IMG/VR virus record: IMGVR_UViG_3300044765_000108
Span: 1 to 20,114 of that record
Length of the DNA stretch: 20,114 nucleotides
Source: a virus
Strand: one strand, 5' to 3'
In this document: positions 5,179 to 16,660 of the stretch, piece by piece
How the letters are laid out: the number at the start of each line of letters is the position of its first letter
How positions within the stretch are numbered: position 1 is the first letter of the stretch
The notes under the pieces: model-generated
Told to the model about the DNA's origin: nothing
Databases searched by the model: none
What the model saw: the letters and a program-made list of their open reading frames with translations, nothing else
Made by a program: the position numbers and the translations under genes

Positions 5179-5682
5179 TCATTTCGAGCCACTCGCACTA
5201 GATGCGGACGCTGGCGCTGCATGCGCCGCAGCCACCTGAGCCTCAACCACACCCACAACACCGGCAGCGGTCTCGGCTAGTACCAATGCTGCCTGTACCT
5301 GCGCCTGTTGCGCAGGTGGAAGCGGTAGTGATCCAGCCAAATATGCGAGCGCCGGCAGTCCAGTCTGTACCAATGCTTGAACGCTAGACGCATCCACCAA
5401 TGGGGCTGCCGAAGCACCGTTACATACCTTCGTCACAATGGCATGGACGACCGCCAGTTGTGCGGAAGCCTTCTGGCCAACCGCCGCAGTAGCTGGGTCA
5501 GCCTCCAGCGCGGCATTGAACGCGGTCAACTGCGTATGCACGAGATCGAGCTGCGGGCACGCGATGGTGGCGATCTGCTGTGGCGTGAGCGGCTGAGGCT
5601 TGACACCGCAACCGGACACGAACAACGCGCACAGCATCACCGTCGCGATGGTCAGCATCGCGAAGAAATGGCGGATTTTCAT
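5179..5682 (-). CDS. Phage lipoprotein, 167 aa
   Basis: The N-terminus MKIRHFFAMLTIATVMLCALFVSGC is a clear type II signal peptide: basic start, hydrophobic core and a lipobox VSGC with the acylated Cys at ~25. The mature part begins GVKPQPLTPQQIA, followed by an Ala/Val/Gln-rich helical region with two further Cys residues and a small-residue tail. It is likely anchored in a membrane facing the periplasm. Its position next to holin and lysozyme suggests a role as an outer-membrane disruptor (o-spanin-like). It is much longer than Rz1, and no Rz-type partner is embedded in or next to it, so this role is uncertain. Confidence 0.8.
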   Translation of the reverse strand: MKIRHFFAMLTIATVMLCALFVSGCGVKPQPLTPQQIATIACPQLDLVHTQLTAFNAALEADPATAAVGQKASAQLAVVHAIVTKVCNGASAAPLVDASSVQALVQTGLPALAYLAGSLPLPPAQQAQVQAALVLAETAAGVVGVVEAQVAAAHAAPASASSASGSK

Positions 5683-9630: not shown

Positions 9631-10420
9631 TTTTCATCGCCTCCAACGCCTGAACTGCCATGCCGGTTTTGCTGATCTGCATCGCTCGAGCTGGTGGTGG
9701 TCCGGTGCTGACCGTCTTCGCACCCTCGGCATGCCGGCTCCGTGCTGTCGCGATGGCATAGGCGAACGGGTTGGCCTTGCCTGGAGCTTCGGCGTAGGTG
9801 TCGCGGATCGCTTCCGGTGTCACACCCTCAGCGAGCGCTGCGAGGAGGTCCGGATGGCTTGCGTTGACCCTTGCGCAACCGGCCTGCCGGAGGAGCAAGC
9901 ACGCGCGCCCTGCGTCGGTCCCGGCCTGGGTAGGGATCTCTGTGCGTGCCTCAAGCTGTTGCTCTTGATGGTGTATGGCGTGTGGCGTGTGGAGAGCTTC
10001 ACCAGACTGGGTAGCCCGCTGGGTTTCTTCTGGGTTACCCCCCAGATAACCCACTGGGTTACCGGATGGGTTACCCGGTGGGTTACCGGCTGGGTTCGGT
10101 TTGCGGCCACCTTTCGAGCCGTTTTGCTGGGCGATCTGGATGCGCCGCTGAGCCTTGGCGATCTCCGCATCTACCCGATTTTTATGGCGAAATCCGTCGT
10201 CAGCGATCGGGAAGAACTCCTCGGCAACCTTGCGTGTTGCCGCTTTGTCGGCCGCTGAAATCGCGCTCGTAATCACGTACAGCTTTTTGAGGTCTGCGGG
10301 CAGCGGCTTTTCTTCGCTGTAATACGCGATTAAAAGCTTCAAATATGCCCCGTGTTCCGTGAGGTTTAGCGACGTCGTATCACGCAGGTAGTCGCCCGGA
10401 TAGAACTCGAAGTAGTTCAT
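9545..10420 (-). CDS. DUF1376 (YdaU-like) replication-associated protein
   Basis: The N-terminal ~90 residues are a typical DUF1376 domain: MNYFEFYPGDYLRDTTSLNL, then HGAYLKLLIAYYSEEKPLP, then a later FRHKNRVDAEI. DUF1376 proteins are common in phage replication blocks and combine a winged-helix-like N-terminus with variable C-termini. Residues ~105-140 are a tetrapeptide repeat of the type GNPxGNPx, encoded by a 12-bp DNA array. The C-terminal half contains a helical domain (HPDLLAALAEGVTPEAIRDT, then GKANPFAYAIATAR) seen in replication initiator-like proteins. It is 291 aa and coupled by ATGA to the PP-loop gene before it. It probably acts at the phage origin, in the place of lambda O. Confidence 0.82.
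   Translation of the reverse strand: MNYFEFYPGDYLRDTTSLNLTEHGAYLKLLIAYYSEEKPLPADLKKLYVITSAISAADKAATRKVAEEFFPIADDGFRHKNRVDAEIAKAQRRIQIAQQNGSKGGRKPNPAGNPPGNPSGNPVGYLGGNPEETQRATQSGEALHTPHAIHHQEQQLEARTEIPTQAGTDAGRACLLLRQAGCARVNASHPDLLAALAEGVTPEAIRDTYAEAPGKANPFAYAIATARSRHAEGAKTVSTGPPPARAMQISKTGMAVQALEAMKSENRLGDGRNLDGPAEAGLPRLGSTAGG
10008..10099. repeat. 12-bp period TGGGTTACC array inside the DUF1376 gene; candidate replication origin
   Basis: On the plus strand exact TGGGTTACC copies start at 10031, 10055, 10067 and 10079. Degenerate copies start at 10008 (TGGGTAGCC), 10020 (TGGGTTTCT) and 10091 (TGGGTTCGG), mostly 12 bases apart. An inverted GATAACCCA copy lies at 10045-10053. The array encodes the GNPx repeat of the protein. 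Iterons inside the initiator gene are the arrangement of the lambda origin in gene O, which makes this a candidate origin. It may equally be only a coding repeat. Confidence 0.6.
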
Positions 10421-11358
10421 GCGGCACGCTCACACAAGCCTAGATCGGACGTGCAACCACCGCCGGCCTGCTGGTCGAAAAACATGGCGTATTGCCGACC
10501 ACCACGAACGGTCTTGCTCCACTCGACCAGGGTGCGGATGCGTGAGTACGTATCCGGCCGGTCCACGTCTGTGGGGTCGGTGACTGCCGGAAAGAACGTG
10601 GCCGACCGCCACTTATTGCTAGCCGACACGATGGCCTCCCAGCGCTCAATACGGTCGATGTGATCTGGGAACTGCGCCGCAATCATTCGAAGCTCGCTCT
10701 TGCGGCAGTTGATGCAAGGCATACACCCAACCCTACCCATGCCCATGGTGTACAGCGGATTGCGCTCGATCCTGTGCCGCTTGTGGATCTCCCAGACTTG
10801 ATCAATCGACCAGCGGAAGATCGGGCGCCATACCATCGAGCCACTCTCGTGGTGGTTGTATCGAGGCTGCCGTGCCCGATTGCGGCTTTCTGCAGCGCGA
10901 ATGCCAAGCCATTGCAGGACAGGCCCCTCGCGAAGCATTGGGCCGACCACCTGTGTTGTGATGGGAATTTCTTTCAACTCCCCGGTACAGAACTGGGCCA
11001 TGCGCGACGGGAATCGGCCCTTGCTTATGCATAGGTCCAGGTACGGGTTCCCGGTGGGTTCGTGGAGCGCAGCCGCTTCCTGCACGATGGCGTCAGGGAT
11101 GCCCTGCTTAGGCCATTCGCGCAAAACGTATTCGCGATGCCTGACGAGGTCTGCAGTGAAGTCTGCGCGTACGACTTCGACCCTGGGGCCACCTGTCCGT
11201 TCATGGAGCCGTGCGACGTACTCGTATGTCAGCTCGTGCTCGTTACCCGTGTCGGCAAACACTGCGCGGAACGGTCGGCCGGACTCCAGCGCGAGCAAAT
11301 ATGTCGCTGTGGAGTCTTTACCGCCGCTTACACTGACAAGATGTTGAATTGGTCTCAT
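10417..11358 (-). CDS. PP-loop ATPase of the PAPS reductase/DndC type
   Basis: The start is ATG 11358 (ATGA overlap with the gene before); the open frame runs eight codons further back. The 313-aa product has the PP-loop SGGKDST (residues 11-17) and FADTGNEHELTYEYV, the second strand typical of PAPS reductase and DndC-like enzymes. Cys-rich motifs follow: FCTGELKEIP, GCMPCINCRKSEL, and a C-terminal CTSDLGLC. The three Cys groups could hold an iron-sulfur cluster. Family members activate a substrate by adenylation, for example in sulfur transfer to DNA or tRNA. It is directly coupled to the Mom-like gene, which suggests a joint role in DNA or nucleotide modification; that part is inference. 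Confidence 0.85.
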   Translation of the reverse strand: MRPIQHLVSVSGGKDSTATYLLALESGRPFRAVFADTGNEHELTYEYVARLHERTGGPRVEVVRADFTADLVRHREYVLREWPKQGIPDAIVQEAAALHEPTGNPYLDLCISKGRFPSRMAQFCTGELKEIPITTQVVGPMLREGPVLQWLGIRAAESRNRARQPRYNHHESGSMVWRPIFRWSIDQVWEIHKRHRIERNPLYTMGMGRVGCMPCINCRKSELRMIAAQFPDHIDRIERWEAIVSASNKWRSATFFPAVTDPTDVDRPDTYSRIRTLVEWSKTVRGGRQYAMFFDQQAGGGCTSDLGLCERAA

Positions 11359-11837
11359 GCCGCCACCGCCGATGATGGCCATACCCAGATGTAGCGATTG
11401 CGCCCTTGCCGGCTGGTGCGCCGGTCAAATGTCCCGCGCGCATATGCCGCGCGCTTCCAGCCGTCGAAGCGGTAGGTATTGCCGGTGTGGATATCCGCGT
11501 CCTGGTAGCTGATAGCCGTCGCCATGCCAGTCCCGGGCAACACTAGTTCGCGCCATAGGCGCAGCACCACGCGGCATGCCCATGGCTCGGCGGCACAAAG
11601 CCGGCTTAGTTCCACGGTGTTCTCACGCGTCAGATGCGACAACCCACCACCAACATGCGGAGCGATAAGCGAAGACGTTGTTGCCACCCCCACGGGCTTT
11701 CCGTGCACGAATAGCGCATGGCATTGCAGCGCGCCGCTGTTGCCGCGAAGCAATGGCCCCATCTTGTGGCCCCAAGCAGCGAGCAGTTCGTTAGCCGTCG
11801 CGAGGTCGATGTTGTCGAAGCTGGCCAGCGGGAACAT
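11355..11837 (-). CDS. Mom-like GNAT-fold DNA modification protein
   Basis: The start is ATG 11837, sharing one base with the preceding stop (TGATG); the longer frame to 11903 is overlap. The 160-aa product carries the features of the Mom group of GNAT proteins: ELSRLCAAEPWACRVVLRLW (from residue 76) and ISYQDADIHTGNTYRFDGW (109-127), where Mom proteins have a 'sYaD...ghxGxiYqa.nw' pattern. Phage Mu Mom converts adenine in phage DNA to N6-carbamoylmethyladenine, shielding it from restriction. The family match is by recalled pattern. The C-terminal end is basic and aromatic (RRTSRQGRNRYIWVWP). Confidence 0.72.
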   Translation of the reverse strand: MFPLASFDNIDLATANELLAAWGHKMGPLLRGNSGALQCHALFVHGKPVGVATTSSLIAPHVGGGLSHLTRENTVELSRLCAAEPWACRVVLRLWRELVLPGTGMATAISYQDADIHTGNTYRFDGWKRAAYARGTFDRRTSRQGRNRYIWVWPSSAVAA

Positions 11838-12190
11838 CACGCCACCAACCTCTCCGCTTGCACCGGCCAAAGGGTTTGCATCTGGCTTCCCAGCACGCGG
11901 CATTGCCGAATGGGCCCGAACACCACCCTCCCGCTCATGCGCATGTCACCGGTACGGCGATCGATCTGCACATGCGTCAGCCCGGTGTATTGCGTCAGCT
12001 CGCCGGCGGTGCAGCCGGGATGCGCATAGATCGCGGCGATGATTCGCTCGAGCTGCGTCTGACGCTTGCCGGTGCTGGTGATCTGCTCGGCGGCCAGGTG
12101 CGACGACACCGGATCGTTTGCTCGAGCAGCCGGCGTTTCGATGCGGCGCACTGGCGGCACTCGCCCGAAGTTGAAAGCTTCCTGGTTCAT
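11837..12190 (-). CDS. Small winged-helix protein, 117 aa
   Basis: ATG 12190 is chosen because it overlaps the stop of the 47-aa gene (TGATG) and GAGG precedes it; the frame extends to 12277 without support. The N-terminal third is a disordered Pro/Arg linker (VPPVRRIETPAARANDPVSS). The rest reads as a winged helix: TQLERIIAAIYAHPGCTAGE, LTQYTGLTHVQIDRRTGDM, then a strand VVFGPIRQC. DivIVA-free, enzyme-free proteins of this layout are common in phage early operons as DNA-binding factors. No exact family is recognised. Confidence 0.75.
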   Translation of the reverse strand: MNQEAFNFGRVPPVRRIETPAARANDPVSSHLAAEQITSTGKRQTQLERIIAAIYAHPGCTAGELTQYTGLTHVQIDRRTGDMRMSGRVVFGPIRQCRVLGSQMQTLWPVQAERLVA

Positions 12191-13486: not shown

Positions 13487-13708
13487 TCACGCAGCCTCCC
13501 TTTTTGCCGAGGCCAGCAAGTCGACGATCGTCACTTCGCCGAGAGTTACGCCGACGATCGCTTCCCAGTGCTCGGGGTCGATGCGTCGAGCGCCACTGAT
13601 CCAGTGACGAACGGCCGGCGCCTGAACACCGCAGGCCTTGGCGATCTTGCCAATAGCTTTGCCGCGTTCCCCAAGGGGATGTTTAGAAACCCATTCGCGT
13701 ATGTTCAT
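13487..13708 (-). CDS. Cro-like transcription regulator
   Basis: ATG 13708 gives a 73-aa protein, MNIREWVSKHPLGERGKAIG, with a Cro-type helix-turn-helix: AIGKIAKACGVQAPAVRHWISG, then RRIDPEHWEAIVGV. The size and divergent position to the repressor gene fit Cro. There is no strong ribosome binding site. A promoter candidate on the minus strand (-35 TTGTAT 13744-13739, 17 bases, -10 TATCCT 13721-13716) would start transcription almost at the ATG, so the mRNA could be leaderless. Operator sites at 13718-13779 overlap this promoter. Confidence 0.82.
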   Translation of the reverse strand: MNIREWVSKHPLGERGKAIGKIAKACGVQAPAVRHWISGARRIDPEHWEAIVGVTLGEVTIVDLLASAKREAA

Positions 13709-13715
13709 GGGCGCG

Positions 13716-13779
13716 AGGATACATGATGTATCCTCAAGATACAATACGTGTCGTTGCAGCATGTGATACAGCACGTACC
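13716..13779. promoter_or_regulatory. Operator cluster (oR-like) with three GATACA-N3-TGTATC sites and the divergent promoters
   Basis: Site 1 is GATACATGATGTATC (13718-13732), perfect and symmetric. Site 2 is GATACAATACGTGTC (13738-13752) and site 3 is GATACAGCACGTACC (13765-13779); both keep the left half-site and are degenerate on the right. Site 1 covers the -10 of the leftward (cro-side) promoter candidate. TACAAT (13740-13745) is a possible -10 for rightward repressor transcription. The arrangement matches the tripartite operator between cI and cro in lambdoid phages. Confidence 0.75.
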
Positions 13780-13788
13780 ATCGAGCCC

Positions 13789-14349
13789 ATGGGATGGGTA
13801 CAGCGCGCCGTAGGGCGCATGCGCGACCTTGGGTTGCGACAAGAAGACCTAAAAGCGACGCTCGGAGTAAAAACCCGCGGCGCAGTTGGCCATTACTTTC
13901 GTGAACGCCGGCAGCTTTCCGCGCAACAGGCTGCGGCACTGGCGGCAAAGCTTGGCATGTCGATCGATGAGTTATTCAGCGACGACCCCGGCGCGGAAGC
14001 CTCTATCGGGAGCGCAGGAATAGTAGATTCAATCTCACAGTCCAATGCGACGAGACTCGACCCTGAAATGATCGCCGAGAGTTACGCAGCACTGAGCGAG
14101 ATATATCTCGAGGAGCGCGGGGTCCCGTTTGACCTCACGCAGGAGCCGGAACGCTTTGTGCTTGTGTATGAGGCTAGGTCACGCATGACGAAGAATCCGA
14201 GCGCTTCCGACGAGCGCAGATTCGGTGCCAGGGTGGCCGAAATCGTGCGACTGACGGGGGCGGATTTACATGGATCGCGAGATGGTGTGCCGGTTGAAGG
14301 CGATGATAAGGGCCCAATGGCCCGAGGAGTTCAACGTAAAAAGGGCTGA
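13789..14349 (+). CDS. Prophage repressor (CI position) with XRE-type HTH but no peptidase domain
   Basis: The frame is open from 13723, but the operators lie in that part, so ATG 13789 (MGWVQRAVGRMRDLGL) is the likely start; the ribosome binding site is weak (GAGCCC). The 186-aa product has an XRE helix-turn-helix at residues ~15-60: LRQEDLKATLGVKTRGAVGH, YFRERRQLSAQQAAALAAKL, then DELFSDD. The rest (DPEMIAESYAALSEIYLEER, then a FVLVYEARSRM segment) shows no S24 signal: no Ala/Cys-Gly cleavage site and no Ser-Lys dyad region. It is divergent from the cro-like gene and shares the operators, which supports a repressor role. Confidence 0.82.
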   Translation: MGWVQRAVGRMRDLGLRQEDLKATLGVKTRGAVGHYFRERRQLSAQQAAALAAKLGMSIDELFSDDPGAEASIGSAGIVDSISQSNATRLDPEMIAESYAALSEIYLEERGVPFDLTQEPERFVLVYEARSRMTKNPSASDERRFGARVAEIVRLTGADLHGSRDGVPVEGDDKGPMARGVQRKKG

Positions 14350-14524: not shown

Positions 14525-14872
14525 TCAAGCCGTGCGGCGCATGAAATCGCCAACAGGAACTGTTGGTTCTCCAGCTTCGCTCTCTCTTTTTTCTGCGTCT
14601 TCCAGCAGCTTTTGATAGATCTGCTTGCTTTCCGAGATGGCGAAGCGGTGCAGCAGATCGCGCACCATGGGCTGATAGCCAATCCCATGGTGTCGAGCGA
14701 TCACCTTCAGTGCAGTGATCAGCTCTCTTTCTAGTCGGATGGAGATTGGCTGCAAACCTGCAGCCCTTTCGATCGCCGCTGTCTCATCGGGGCTAGCTTC
14801 CTTCGCATGGGCTGCATCCATCCCGAGCACGCCCTTTTCCCAGTTTTCGATCGACCCCTCGATCTTACTCAT
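14525..14872 (-). CDS. Antitoxin, BrnA/CopG-like ribbon-helix-helix
   Basis: ATG 14872 is chosen: GAGGAG, inside the last toxin codons, lies about nine bases upstream, and the start is two bases after the toxin stop. The 115-aa product has an RHH-type core, QPISIRLERELITALKVIAR followed by HHGIGYQPMVRDLLHRF, matching the BrnA-type pattern 'isiRl...eli..lk..A...gigYq.lir..l'. A disordered acidic C-terminal tail probably wraps the toxin. It is the second gene of the pair, an order known for BrnT/BrnA. Confidence 0.78.
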   Translation of the reverse strand: MSKIEGSIENWEKGVLGMDAAHAKEASPDETAAIERAAGLQPISIRLERELITALKVIARHHGIGYQPMVRDLLHRFAISESKQIYQKLLEDAEKRESEAGEPTVPVGDFMRRTA

Positions 14873-14874
14873 TT

Positions 14875-15192
14875 TCAGCACTCCTCGTTGGGCCAGCTCG
14901 CTGGCAACCCGGCGAGCCGTATATACAAATTGAGCGGACGGTCATCGTCCGGCTCAAAAGCCGTTTTGATCTCAATGTCGTCATCGACTCGAATAAAGCA
15001 AATCTTGAGCAATCGGCCGTGATTCGTCGGGGCAACGAACCAGAAAGTTGGCGGATCCGTACGGTTTGCCTCGCGGGGATCTTCATAGTATTTCGCCTCG
15101 CCATTGGCAAAACACTCGAACACTTCTTTCATAGAGACGCCATGCCGCTCCAAAAGCTTGGCGCCTGTTTTTCCGGACATCTTGAACGCCAT
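14875..15192 (-). CDS. Toxin of a BrnT-like toxin-antitoxin pair
   Basis: ATG 15192 gives 105 aa, beginning MAFKMSGKTGAKLLERHGVS. Its sequence contains MKEVFECFANGEAKYYEDPR, NRTDPPTFWFVAPTNHGRLL, then KICFIRVDDDIEIKTAFEPD. Proteins with this pattern are often annotated as ADP-ribosyl-(dinitrogen reductase) hydrolase-like or BrnT-like toxins (RelE-type fold). The frame remains open far upstream through the repeat region, but the ATG after the promoter palindrome is the logical start. A weak AGGGA ribosome binding site precedes it. The substrate cannot be read from sequence; RNA cleavage would be expected for BrnT. Confidence 0.75.
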   Translation of the reverse strand: MAFKMSGKTGAKLLERHGVSMKEVFECFANGEAKYYEDPREANRTDPPTFWFVAPTNHGRLLKICFIRVDDDIEIKTAFEPDDDRPLNLYIRLAGLPASWPNEEC

Positions 15193-15226
15193 GGTATCTG
15201 CGTCCCTGCAATTTGGTGTGTGTGGA

Positions 15227-15255
15227 TTGTATATACAAGTGATCGGCTTCAGCAA
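15227..15255 (-). promoter_or_regulatory. Toxin-antitoxin promoter with TTGTATATACAA palindrome
   Basis: The 12-bp perfect palindrome TTGTATATACAA (15227-15238) overlaps a minus-strand -10 candidate, TATACA (15233-15228). This is placed 16 bases from a -35 candidate, TTGCTG (15255-15250). An RHH antitoxin binding such a site would give autoregulation. The inverted repeat GTGACCCAAGTCAC (15257-15270) lies just upstream. Confidence 0.65.
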
Positions 15256-15486
15256 TGTGACCCAAGTCACCTTTTCATATTTGACAGGAGCGGATTCGGT
15301 TGCGGCGCGCCGCCCTTTTCGACCTACCAGGACGCCTGACGGCGGCCCAACCAGCTGCACCGCGTATTTATGAACCAAAAATAAATGTGTAGCTACCCGT
15401 TGTATCCTTGAGATACATTTTGTATTGCACGGAAAGGATACATTATGTATCGTTCTCCCAACGCCACCCCGGCAGGGAGAACAAGC
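15239..15486. other. Non-coding control region between the TA pair and the rightward early operon
   Basis: About 250 bases without a supported gene. It holds the GTGAC-N4-GTCAC repeat (15257-15270), a GC-rich stretch with GCGGCGCGCCGC, and an A/T-rich block (15365-15390). The operator and promoter cluster follows, then the ribosome binding site of the hexapeptide-repeat gene. No convincing RNA gene is seen. Confidence 0.6.
15392..15451 (+). promoter_or_regulatory. Operator cluster (oL-like) and rightward early promoter
   Basis: Three sites of the same type as at 13718-13779: GCTACCCGTTGTATC (15392-15406, half-degenerate), GATACATTTTGTATT (15412-15426) and GATACATTATGTATC (15437-15451, perfect). 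A promoter candidate, -35 TTGTAT (15400-15405), 17 bases, -10 TATTGC (15423-15428), has the same element spacing as the cro-side promoter, and the two regions align over about 29 bases on opposite strands. Confidence 0.75.
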
Positions 15487-16227
15487 ATGGCCCGCAAGAA
15501 ATTCGAACTCGTCGCAGACCAGTCCATTGAAGTCTTCGGCATCAAGCTGTTCCGCATCCGCGCTCTGATTTCGTTCGGCTCGGTGAGCAAGGGTGAGCTG
15601 GGCGGCTATGTCGCTAAAGAGGAAAACCTCAGCCAGGAAGGCAACGCGTGGGTCTACGACAACGCGCGGGTCTACGACAACGCGCGGGTCTACCACAACG
15701 CGCGGGTCTACGACAACGCGCGGGTCTACGACAACGCGCGGGTCTCCGGCAACGCGCGGGTCTACGACAACGCGCGGGTCTACGACAACGCGCGGGTCTC
15801 CGGCAACGCGCGGGTCTACGACAACGCGCGGGTCTACGACAACGCGTGGGTCTACGGCAACGCGTGGGTCTCCGGCAACGCGTGGGTCTACGACAACGCG
15901 CGGGTCTACGACAACGCGTGGGTCTACGGCAACGCGTGGGTCTCCGGCGACGCGCGGGTCTCCGGCGACGCGTCCATTTTTTGGGCATCCCGCGTCGGCA
16001 GTGAAAACGGCACCCTCACGGTCTTCCGCGCAAAGGTCGGTCTCTATGTCACCCGCGGCTGCTTTGCTGGCACGGATGACGAATTCCTCAAGCGCGTGGA
16101 TGAAGTGCATGGCGCCGAATCGAAGGTTGGTCGCGAATACCACCTTCTGATTGAGGTTGCGCGTTCGCGCATCGATGTCACTACGCCACTGCCGGAACAG
16201 GCGGAATCCGATAGGGAGGCCGCATGA
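15487..16227 (+). CDS. Hexapeptide-repeat (predicted left-handed beta-helix) protein, first gene of the rightward operon
   Basis: ATG 15487 with GGGAG nine bases upstream is preferred to the frame start at 15445, which lies within the operator. The 246-aa product has three parts. The N-terminal domain, residues ~1-52, includes FGIKLFRIRALISFGSVSKG and ELGGYVAKEENLS. Then come 18 tandem hexapeptides of the type NARVYD/NAWVYG/NARVSG. The C-terminal domain includes NGTLTVFRAKVGLYVTRGCF, then AGTDDEFLKRVDEVHG and a helix. Regular small-Ala-Val-small hexads predict a left-handed beta-helix of about six turns. Related phage proteins are often labelled 'transferase hexapeptide' or 'polymer-forming', without proven function. 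Control by the repressor-type operators makes it an immediate-early product. Confidence 0.85.
   Translation: MARKKFELVADQSIEVFGIKLFRIRALISFGSVSKGELGGYVAKEENLSQEGNAWVYDNARVYDNARVYHNARVYDNARVYDNARVSGNARVYDNARVYDNARVSGNARVYDNARVYDNAWVYGNAWVSGNAWVYDNARVYDNAWVYGNAWVSGDARVSGDASIFWASRVGSENGTLTVFRAKVGLYVTRGCFAGTDDEFLKRVDEVHGAESKVGREYHLLIEVARSRIDVTTPLPEQAESDREAA
15643..15966 (+). repeat. Tandem array of 18 units of 18 bp
   Basis: The unit AACGCGCGGGTCTACGAC and close variants (CGTGGG for CGCGGG, TCCGGC or TACGGC for TACGAC) repeats 18 times without interruption, encoding the hexapeptides. No unit contains a stop in any reading frame, so all six frames are open here; only the plus frame starting at 15487 makes sense. 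Confidence 0.95.
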
Positions 16228-16433
16228 ACACTCCGATATGGCAGTCCGACACGATCGATGTCGATGAAAAGACCGAGGCTGATGTCCAGGCTAGCGAACT
16301 GAGCGTTGCTCTCCGCTTCCACGACGGCCGCTGGATCTTCGAGATGCACCTCGACGACGAACGCGCTCTTGCGCTCGCCGCGCAGATAAACGAGGGCGTC
16401 ATTCAGCACCGTTCGATGAGGGCCCGGCCATGA
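16224..16433 (+). CDS. 69-aa acidic protein
   Basis: It starts by an ATGA overlap with the repeat protein gene. The product, MNTPIWQSDTIDVDEKTEAD at the start and LSVALRFHDGRWIFEMHLDD in the middle, then a helix, looks like a small alpha/beta protein. It is not recognised. It overlaps the next gene by ATGA. Confidence 0.75.
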   Translation: MNTPIWQSDTIDVDEKTEADVQASELSVALRFHDGRWIFEMHLDDERALALAAQINEGVIQHRSMRARP

Positions 16434-16660
16434 ACGACCTGGACATCGAGCGCTTCTACGCCAACAACGCGCACACGGAGGTCGACCTCCTGCGCGCCCG
16501 ACTCGGCATTCCGGAGCCCGTGCCGTTCAAGCCCAAGGCGCAGACGCCGGCGGCAACAGCACCGGCCCGCATCGCACTGATCGAGCGCCCCGCCTTCATC
16601 GTCGGCATGTATGTCGTGGTGATCGTCGTGATGGCTTTCAGTGCATGGAGCAACGCATGA
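16430..16660 (+). CDS. 76-aa protein with a C-terminal membrane anchor
   Basis: The N-terminus is polar (MNDLDIERFYANNAHTEVDL), followed by a Pro/Ala linker and one transmembrane segment near the C-terminus (FIVGMYVVVIVVMAFSAW, residues ~56-73). This makes a tail-anchored topology likely. Small membrane proteins in phage early operons may be exclusion or host-takeover factors, but nothing specific is seen. Confidence 0.75.
   Translation: MNDLDIERFYANNAHTEVDLLRARLGIPEPVPFKPKAQTPAATAPARIALIERPAFIVGMYVVVIVVMAFSAWSNA

Follow-up and report, generated by a model that had tools for sequence, protein, structure and literature searches.

The locus raises the question of what a phage protein built around a long run of near-identical hexapeptides might do. 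In the window (the entire stretch of 20,114 nucleotides that was analysed) the gene in question (15487..16227, + strand) was translated into a 246-residue protein, predicted to be a capped hexapeptide beta-solenoid. It consists of an N-terminal cap domain (residues 1-52; 15487..15642, +), which is YdcK-like in alignments and, for a close relative, in the match of its model to 2f9c_A; 18 tandem hexapeptides (residues 53-160; 15643..15966, +), identified by translation and with Tandem Repeats Finder; and a C-terminal domain (15967..16224, +) of predicted beta strands followed by two helices, designated GCF after its conserved GCFxGTxxEF motif. An earlier examination of the DNA made without database searches (the sequence-only reading) had described 18 near-identical hexapeptides flanked by two conserved-looking domains; translation gave exactly 18 contiguous repeats, and residues 1-52 and about 161-240 could be aligned across phages with very different hosts.

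The array has a period of 18 nt, with 18.4 copies, 92% matches and a score of 515 (Tandem Repeats Finder), and no other array in the window scored near it. All 18 of the contiguous copies follow the consensus (N/D)-A-(R/W)-V-(Y/S)-(D/G/H), encoded by the codons AAC/GAC-GCG-CGG/TGG-GTC-TAC/TCC-GAC/GGC/CAC. A codon-by-codon listing revealed no silent variants among the 18 repeats of the window, the variation being N/D, R/W, Y/S and D/G/H; the C/T variation of CGG/TGG is a poor fit to the adenine-specific mutagenesis of diversity-generating retroelement targets. The fixed register of Arg/Trp and Asp previously proposed was retained for position 3, which is Arg or Trp, but not for position 6, which is Asp, Gly or His, so that Asp is absent from some repeats. 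An ORF on the opposite strand (14875-16143) was regarded as a side effect of the repeat. Translation is probably initiated at 15487: a probable ribosome binding site, AGGGAG (15474..15479, +), lies 7 nt upstream of this start, and the same start and context are kept in an 81% identical relative (designated L001), for which reasons this start is supported over the longer ORF from the in-frame ATG at 15445, which sits within an operator.

The protein sequence was compared with family models and with the PDB. A full-length match was obtained to PHROG 7964 (E 3.3e-88; residues 15-244 of the protein against 23-265 of the 269 profile positions), and the match to PHROG 5070 (E 2e-66) also included both caps and the array, with no essential difference from either group. 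The Pfam YdcK beta-solenoid repeat (PF18836) scored 94.7 bits against a cut-off of 30, while the model for the YdcK family proper (NF040481) scored 101 bits, below its equivalog cut-off of 350; a PDB sequence search likewise returned YdcK (E 1e-20). Judged by these matches, the hexapeptide protein belongs to a known, uncharacterised phage family and not to a new one, and the regular beta-helix anticipated by the sequence-only reading is borne out as a beta-solenoid related to YdcK of Salmonella (PDB 2f9c/2pig). The N-terminal cap and the solenoid repeat are common to YdcK and the phage protein, whereas the near-identical repeats and the GCF domain are features of the phage protein.

Relatives were found in 71 phage records by tblastn and at 78 IMG/VR loci by a pattern-based scan, in temperate and lytic phages whose host genera include Streptococcus, Bacillus, Vibrio, Xanthomonas, Mannheimia, Mycobacterium, Bacteroides and others. 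Most of them retain an intact ORF and the same caps, unlike the scattered degenerate copies that had been envisaged as a possible outcome. Paralogues adjoin family genes upstream (10/78) and downstream (14/97), and the other neighbours include genes for exonucleases, RecT, Gam, SSB, methyltransferases, a helicase and MazG. A family model search returned no defence-family match for the hexapeptide protein. Judged by title and abstract, none of the papers listed in literature searches treats the function of this hexapeptide family.

The surroundings of the gene were examined for evidence of when it may be expressed. A recurrence search identified two operator palindromes upstream, TGTATCCTTGAGATACA (15401..15417, +) and GGATACATTATGTATCG (15436..15452, +), and the same two palindromes make up a left operator cluster (13717..13743, +) between divergent cro-like and repressor-like genes; GGATACATnATGTATCC is present at 13717 and 15436 (0.03 expected) and TGTATCCTnnAGATACA at 13727 and 15401 (0 expected). 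Both palindromes flank, on each side, a block holding an HTH_3 repressor-like gene (13723..14349, +; PHROG 8/4, PF01381; start more likely ATG 13789) and, between the two operator clusters, a CopG antitoxin-like and BrnT toxin-like pair (14525-15192, -; both below the Pfam cut-offs). A Cro/YdaS-like regulator gene (13490..13708, -; PHROG 35; PF15943, E 1.7e-6) was also identified. The hexapeptide gene is the first on the right-hand side of the second cluster, immediately beyond the immunity region, and by eye it is followed by a second operon gene (16224..16433, +) and by a third (16430..16660, +) whose product has a hydrophobic C-terminal segment; similar genes were seen in L001. The recurrence of the palindromes beside repressor-like and cro-like genes confirmed the rightward operator cluster that had been described, and the position at the head of a rightward operon was also upheld. 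In L001 the hexapeptide gene is again the first to the right, with an immunity region that differs from that of the window and a palindrome of its own, CCCACnnnTTGTGGG, at 5454 and 5977 on either side of a regulator-like ORF; in SFi18, a Streptococcus phage, the cro-like gp69 is followed by the orthologue, gp229, as the second gene downstream. A consensus scan found no sigma-70 promoter upstream of the hexapeptide gene, and it is therefore from position in the genome that we infer early ('immediate-early') expression. Two other genes of the window encode a Mom-like DNA modification protein (11358-11903, -; PHROG 1384, E 4e-8), with a possible anti-restriction function, and a PAPS-reductase-like protein (10420-11382, -) which matches SspD, BrxP and DndC models.

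Comparison of closely related phages revealed that the array is hypervariable and the end caps are fixed. Among the near-identical Streptococcus phages Sfi19, SFi18 and CHPC919, arrays of constant length are 95.6-96.8% identical (10-14 of 315 nt differ), compared with 100% for the N-terminal domain (0 differences), 99.1-100% for the C-terminal domain (0-2 of 222) and 99.8-99.9% for the 2.5 kb downstream (3-4 differences). Almost every changed codon of the array is a replacement at an exposed position, and the changes are grouped in blocks, the pattern that conversion between repeats would produce; as such blocks are not independent, the Fisher values for these replacements (6e-8 to 7e-11) overstate the significance. 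In Vibrio phages 1.034.O/.X and 1.139.A, array lengths differ between near-identical caps, with the caveat that repeats were assembled from short reads. In the 1569 repeats of 85 arrays, Ala occupies position 2 in 94% and Val position 4 in 88%, while positions 1, 3, 5 and 6 vary within restricted alphabets; pN exceeded pS at exposed positions in 61 of the 85. Within arrays, replacement variants reached a higher mean frequency (0.21) than silent variants (0.16; p 1e-6). When distinct single-step variants were counted, a silent fraction of 0.265 was obtained, equal to the 0.246 expected under neutrality, so no excess of distinct replacement variants was found and the bias is one of variant frequency. 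The selection signal is modest: neither the repeats of one array nor the blocks produced by conversion are independent, and pS can be lowered by codon bias. Selection may be the cause of the replacement bias.

A rod surface that changes unusually fast between fixed end caps points to a quickly adjustable binding protein as the most likely function. The reading preferred here, to which a probability of about 40% is assigned, is that of a non-catalytic capped solenoid, made early, in which recombination would tune a rapidly adjustable protein-binding surface. The conserved N-terminal cap would nucleate the rod, the array would provide a long surface, its Ala and Val residues facing inwards and its Arg/Trp, Tyr/Ser and Asp/Gly residues stacked in ladders on the outer faces, and the GCF domain, also conserved, would act as a separate constant module. 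Recombination among near-identical repeats would shuffle and resize the array, selection would keep the core and favour changed exposed residues, and the solenoid would bind, early in infection, a host factor (a defence or takeover target) or a competing phage. The exposed positions of the 85 arrays are rich in Tyr, Trp, Arg and Ser, residues characteristic of paratopes and of hot spots for protein binding, which fits with such a role.

The main rival, somewhat doubtful on balance, is that function resides in the caps and that the array is a spacer, prone to slippage and under weak constraint, which varies by repeat recombination with its exposed positions free. The array may indeed be dispensable, since both caps are intact in relatives with about 2 repeats (L120) or 4 repeats (L154); lengths among the arrays counted range from 8 to 45 repeats, and the neutral silent fraction among distinct variants and the occurrence of the GCF domain on unrelated solenoids also agree with a spacer. 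Against it stand the higher frequency of replacement variants, the restricted alphabets of the exposed positions, the long arrays of most members and the spacing in whole hexapeptides within each N-cap type (18/18 for the main type), from which it follows that the solenoid itself is kept. A register of whole coils, with length fixed modulo 18, was not found, lengths being fixed only modulo 6 within each N-cap type, and lag-3 periodicity along the arrays was weak (z 3.2 for position 3). It is rather unlikely that the protein is a self-assembling, bactofilin-like or polymer-forming scaffold organising a phage or host structure. The AlphaFold2 model was fairly confident for both terminal domains (pLDDT about 74-82 for the N-terminal cap) and placed one short strand in each hexapeptide of the array, where pLDDT was only 41-62. 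Its best structural match was YdcK (Z 11.7 over 152 residues, but rmsd 9.8), and bactofilin BacA, whose regular beta-solenoid fold is alike, came second with a strong match to the array (Z 11.4, 103 residues, rmsd 2.5); several family members are annotated 'polymer-forming cytoskeletal protein', and some relatives match the bactofilin family PF04519 weakly, one of them above the cut-off. However, such likeness is common to any regular beta-solenoid, the array model is of low confidence, the N-terminal domain and array match YdcK by sequence, the window protein had no match to PF04519 at E values up to 1, and hypervariable outer faces fit homopolymer contacts poorly. In the model of the L001 protein, YdcK 2f9c_A was again matched (Z 6.2, 55 residues, rmsd 2.2), and the likeness of the C-terminal part to PURA (Z 5.7, 67 residues, rmsd 3.2) was too weak for use.

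The sequence-only reading had also proposed two regulatory roles, a lambda N-like antiterminator and DNA mimicry, and an early transcription regulator of either kind is now improbable. The position at the head of an operator-controlled operon in the window and L001, and soon after a cro-like gene in SFi18, favours such a role; position in the genome is all that is shared with lambda N. Paralogues are frequent, and the family also occurs in lytic phages, among them Xanthomonas phage phiXacJX1, where the gene comes after the phage's own putative RNA polymerase gene; methyltransferase and recombination genes are among the neighbours, and in Mannheimia phage 587AP2 the family copy follows recombinase/exonuclease genes. 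Searches of Pfam, PHROG and NCBIfam gave no nucleic-acid-binding family match. As for DNA mimicry, the array of the window has a net charge of +1 and the family median is -0.17 per hexapeptide; an MfpA/Qnr-like solenoid was rejected, the surface not being strongly acidic. An LpxA-type hexapeptide acyltransferase, suggested by phage annotations such as 'putative acyltransferase' and by a weak Hexapep match, is very improbable and was rejected: the Hexapep score (25 bits) is below the cut-off of 27, NCBIfam acyltransferase models scored far below their cut-offs, and family alignments contained no His among the invariant or near-invariant columns, as would be needed for a conserved catalytic His.

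The constant part of the proposed binding protein was followed outside the family. The GCF domain was found behind pentapeptide repeats in gp131 of Listeria phage List-36 and gp3 of EBPR siphovirus 1 (hhalign 97 and 98%), and, with E 3e-3 for the domain, in TH1_197 of Shewanella phage Thanatos-1, where it lies behind a different, CxFG-rich solenoid which matches Hexapep; the TH1_197 gene sits between baseplate genes. Its fusion to a pentapeptide solenoid and to a second kind of hexapeptide solenoid makes the GCF domain a module; against PDB sequences it gave nothing significant. A wider and more tentative suggestion is that these early phage proteins may form a modular class, each combining a conserved GCF domain with one of several interchangeable beta-solenoids, the hexapeptide version being a recombination-driven, paratope-like array whose binary-like exposed alphabets (Tyr/Ser, Arg/Trp, Asp/Gly) would track a changing host or competitor target. 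Two points are worth following, the hypervariable array and the swapping of solenoids on a single C-terminal domain; judged by title and abstract, no paper on either came up in the literature searches. Should the array prove to be a tunable binding surface, phages would contain a repeat scaffold that evolves naturally, and a search for its partner could start from the conserved GCF domain; the near-identical Streptococcus phages provide a direct test case for the effects of array changes.

The family is common in phages, and the names under which it is deposited are misleading: 'acyltransferase', 'glycerol kinase', 'polymer-forming cytoskeletal protein' and even CRISPR spacers. Five members from Streptococcus Javan prophages (H9, H14, H15, H16 and H24) are annotated 'glycerol kinase', apparently a misannotation. 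In Vibrio phages 1.139, 1.034 and 1.209 (loci L086, L089, L090, L091 and L092) the arrays are annotated as CRISPR spacers, and these 'spacers' within hexapeptide genes have the appearance of miscalled tandem repeats; the array of L086 contains two adjacent in-frame stops, and L092 has a frameshift. Related repeat genes were also seen at L104-L110, L112 and L114, which are mostly from Bartonella, several Bartonella genomes carrying them and some at more than one locus; L106 is from a planctomycete MAG. Near the right end of the L001 contig (8460-8705) a different repeat protein is encoded, with units of about 8 residues (SSRAVLRE / SSRAELWG).
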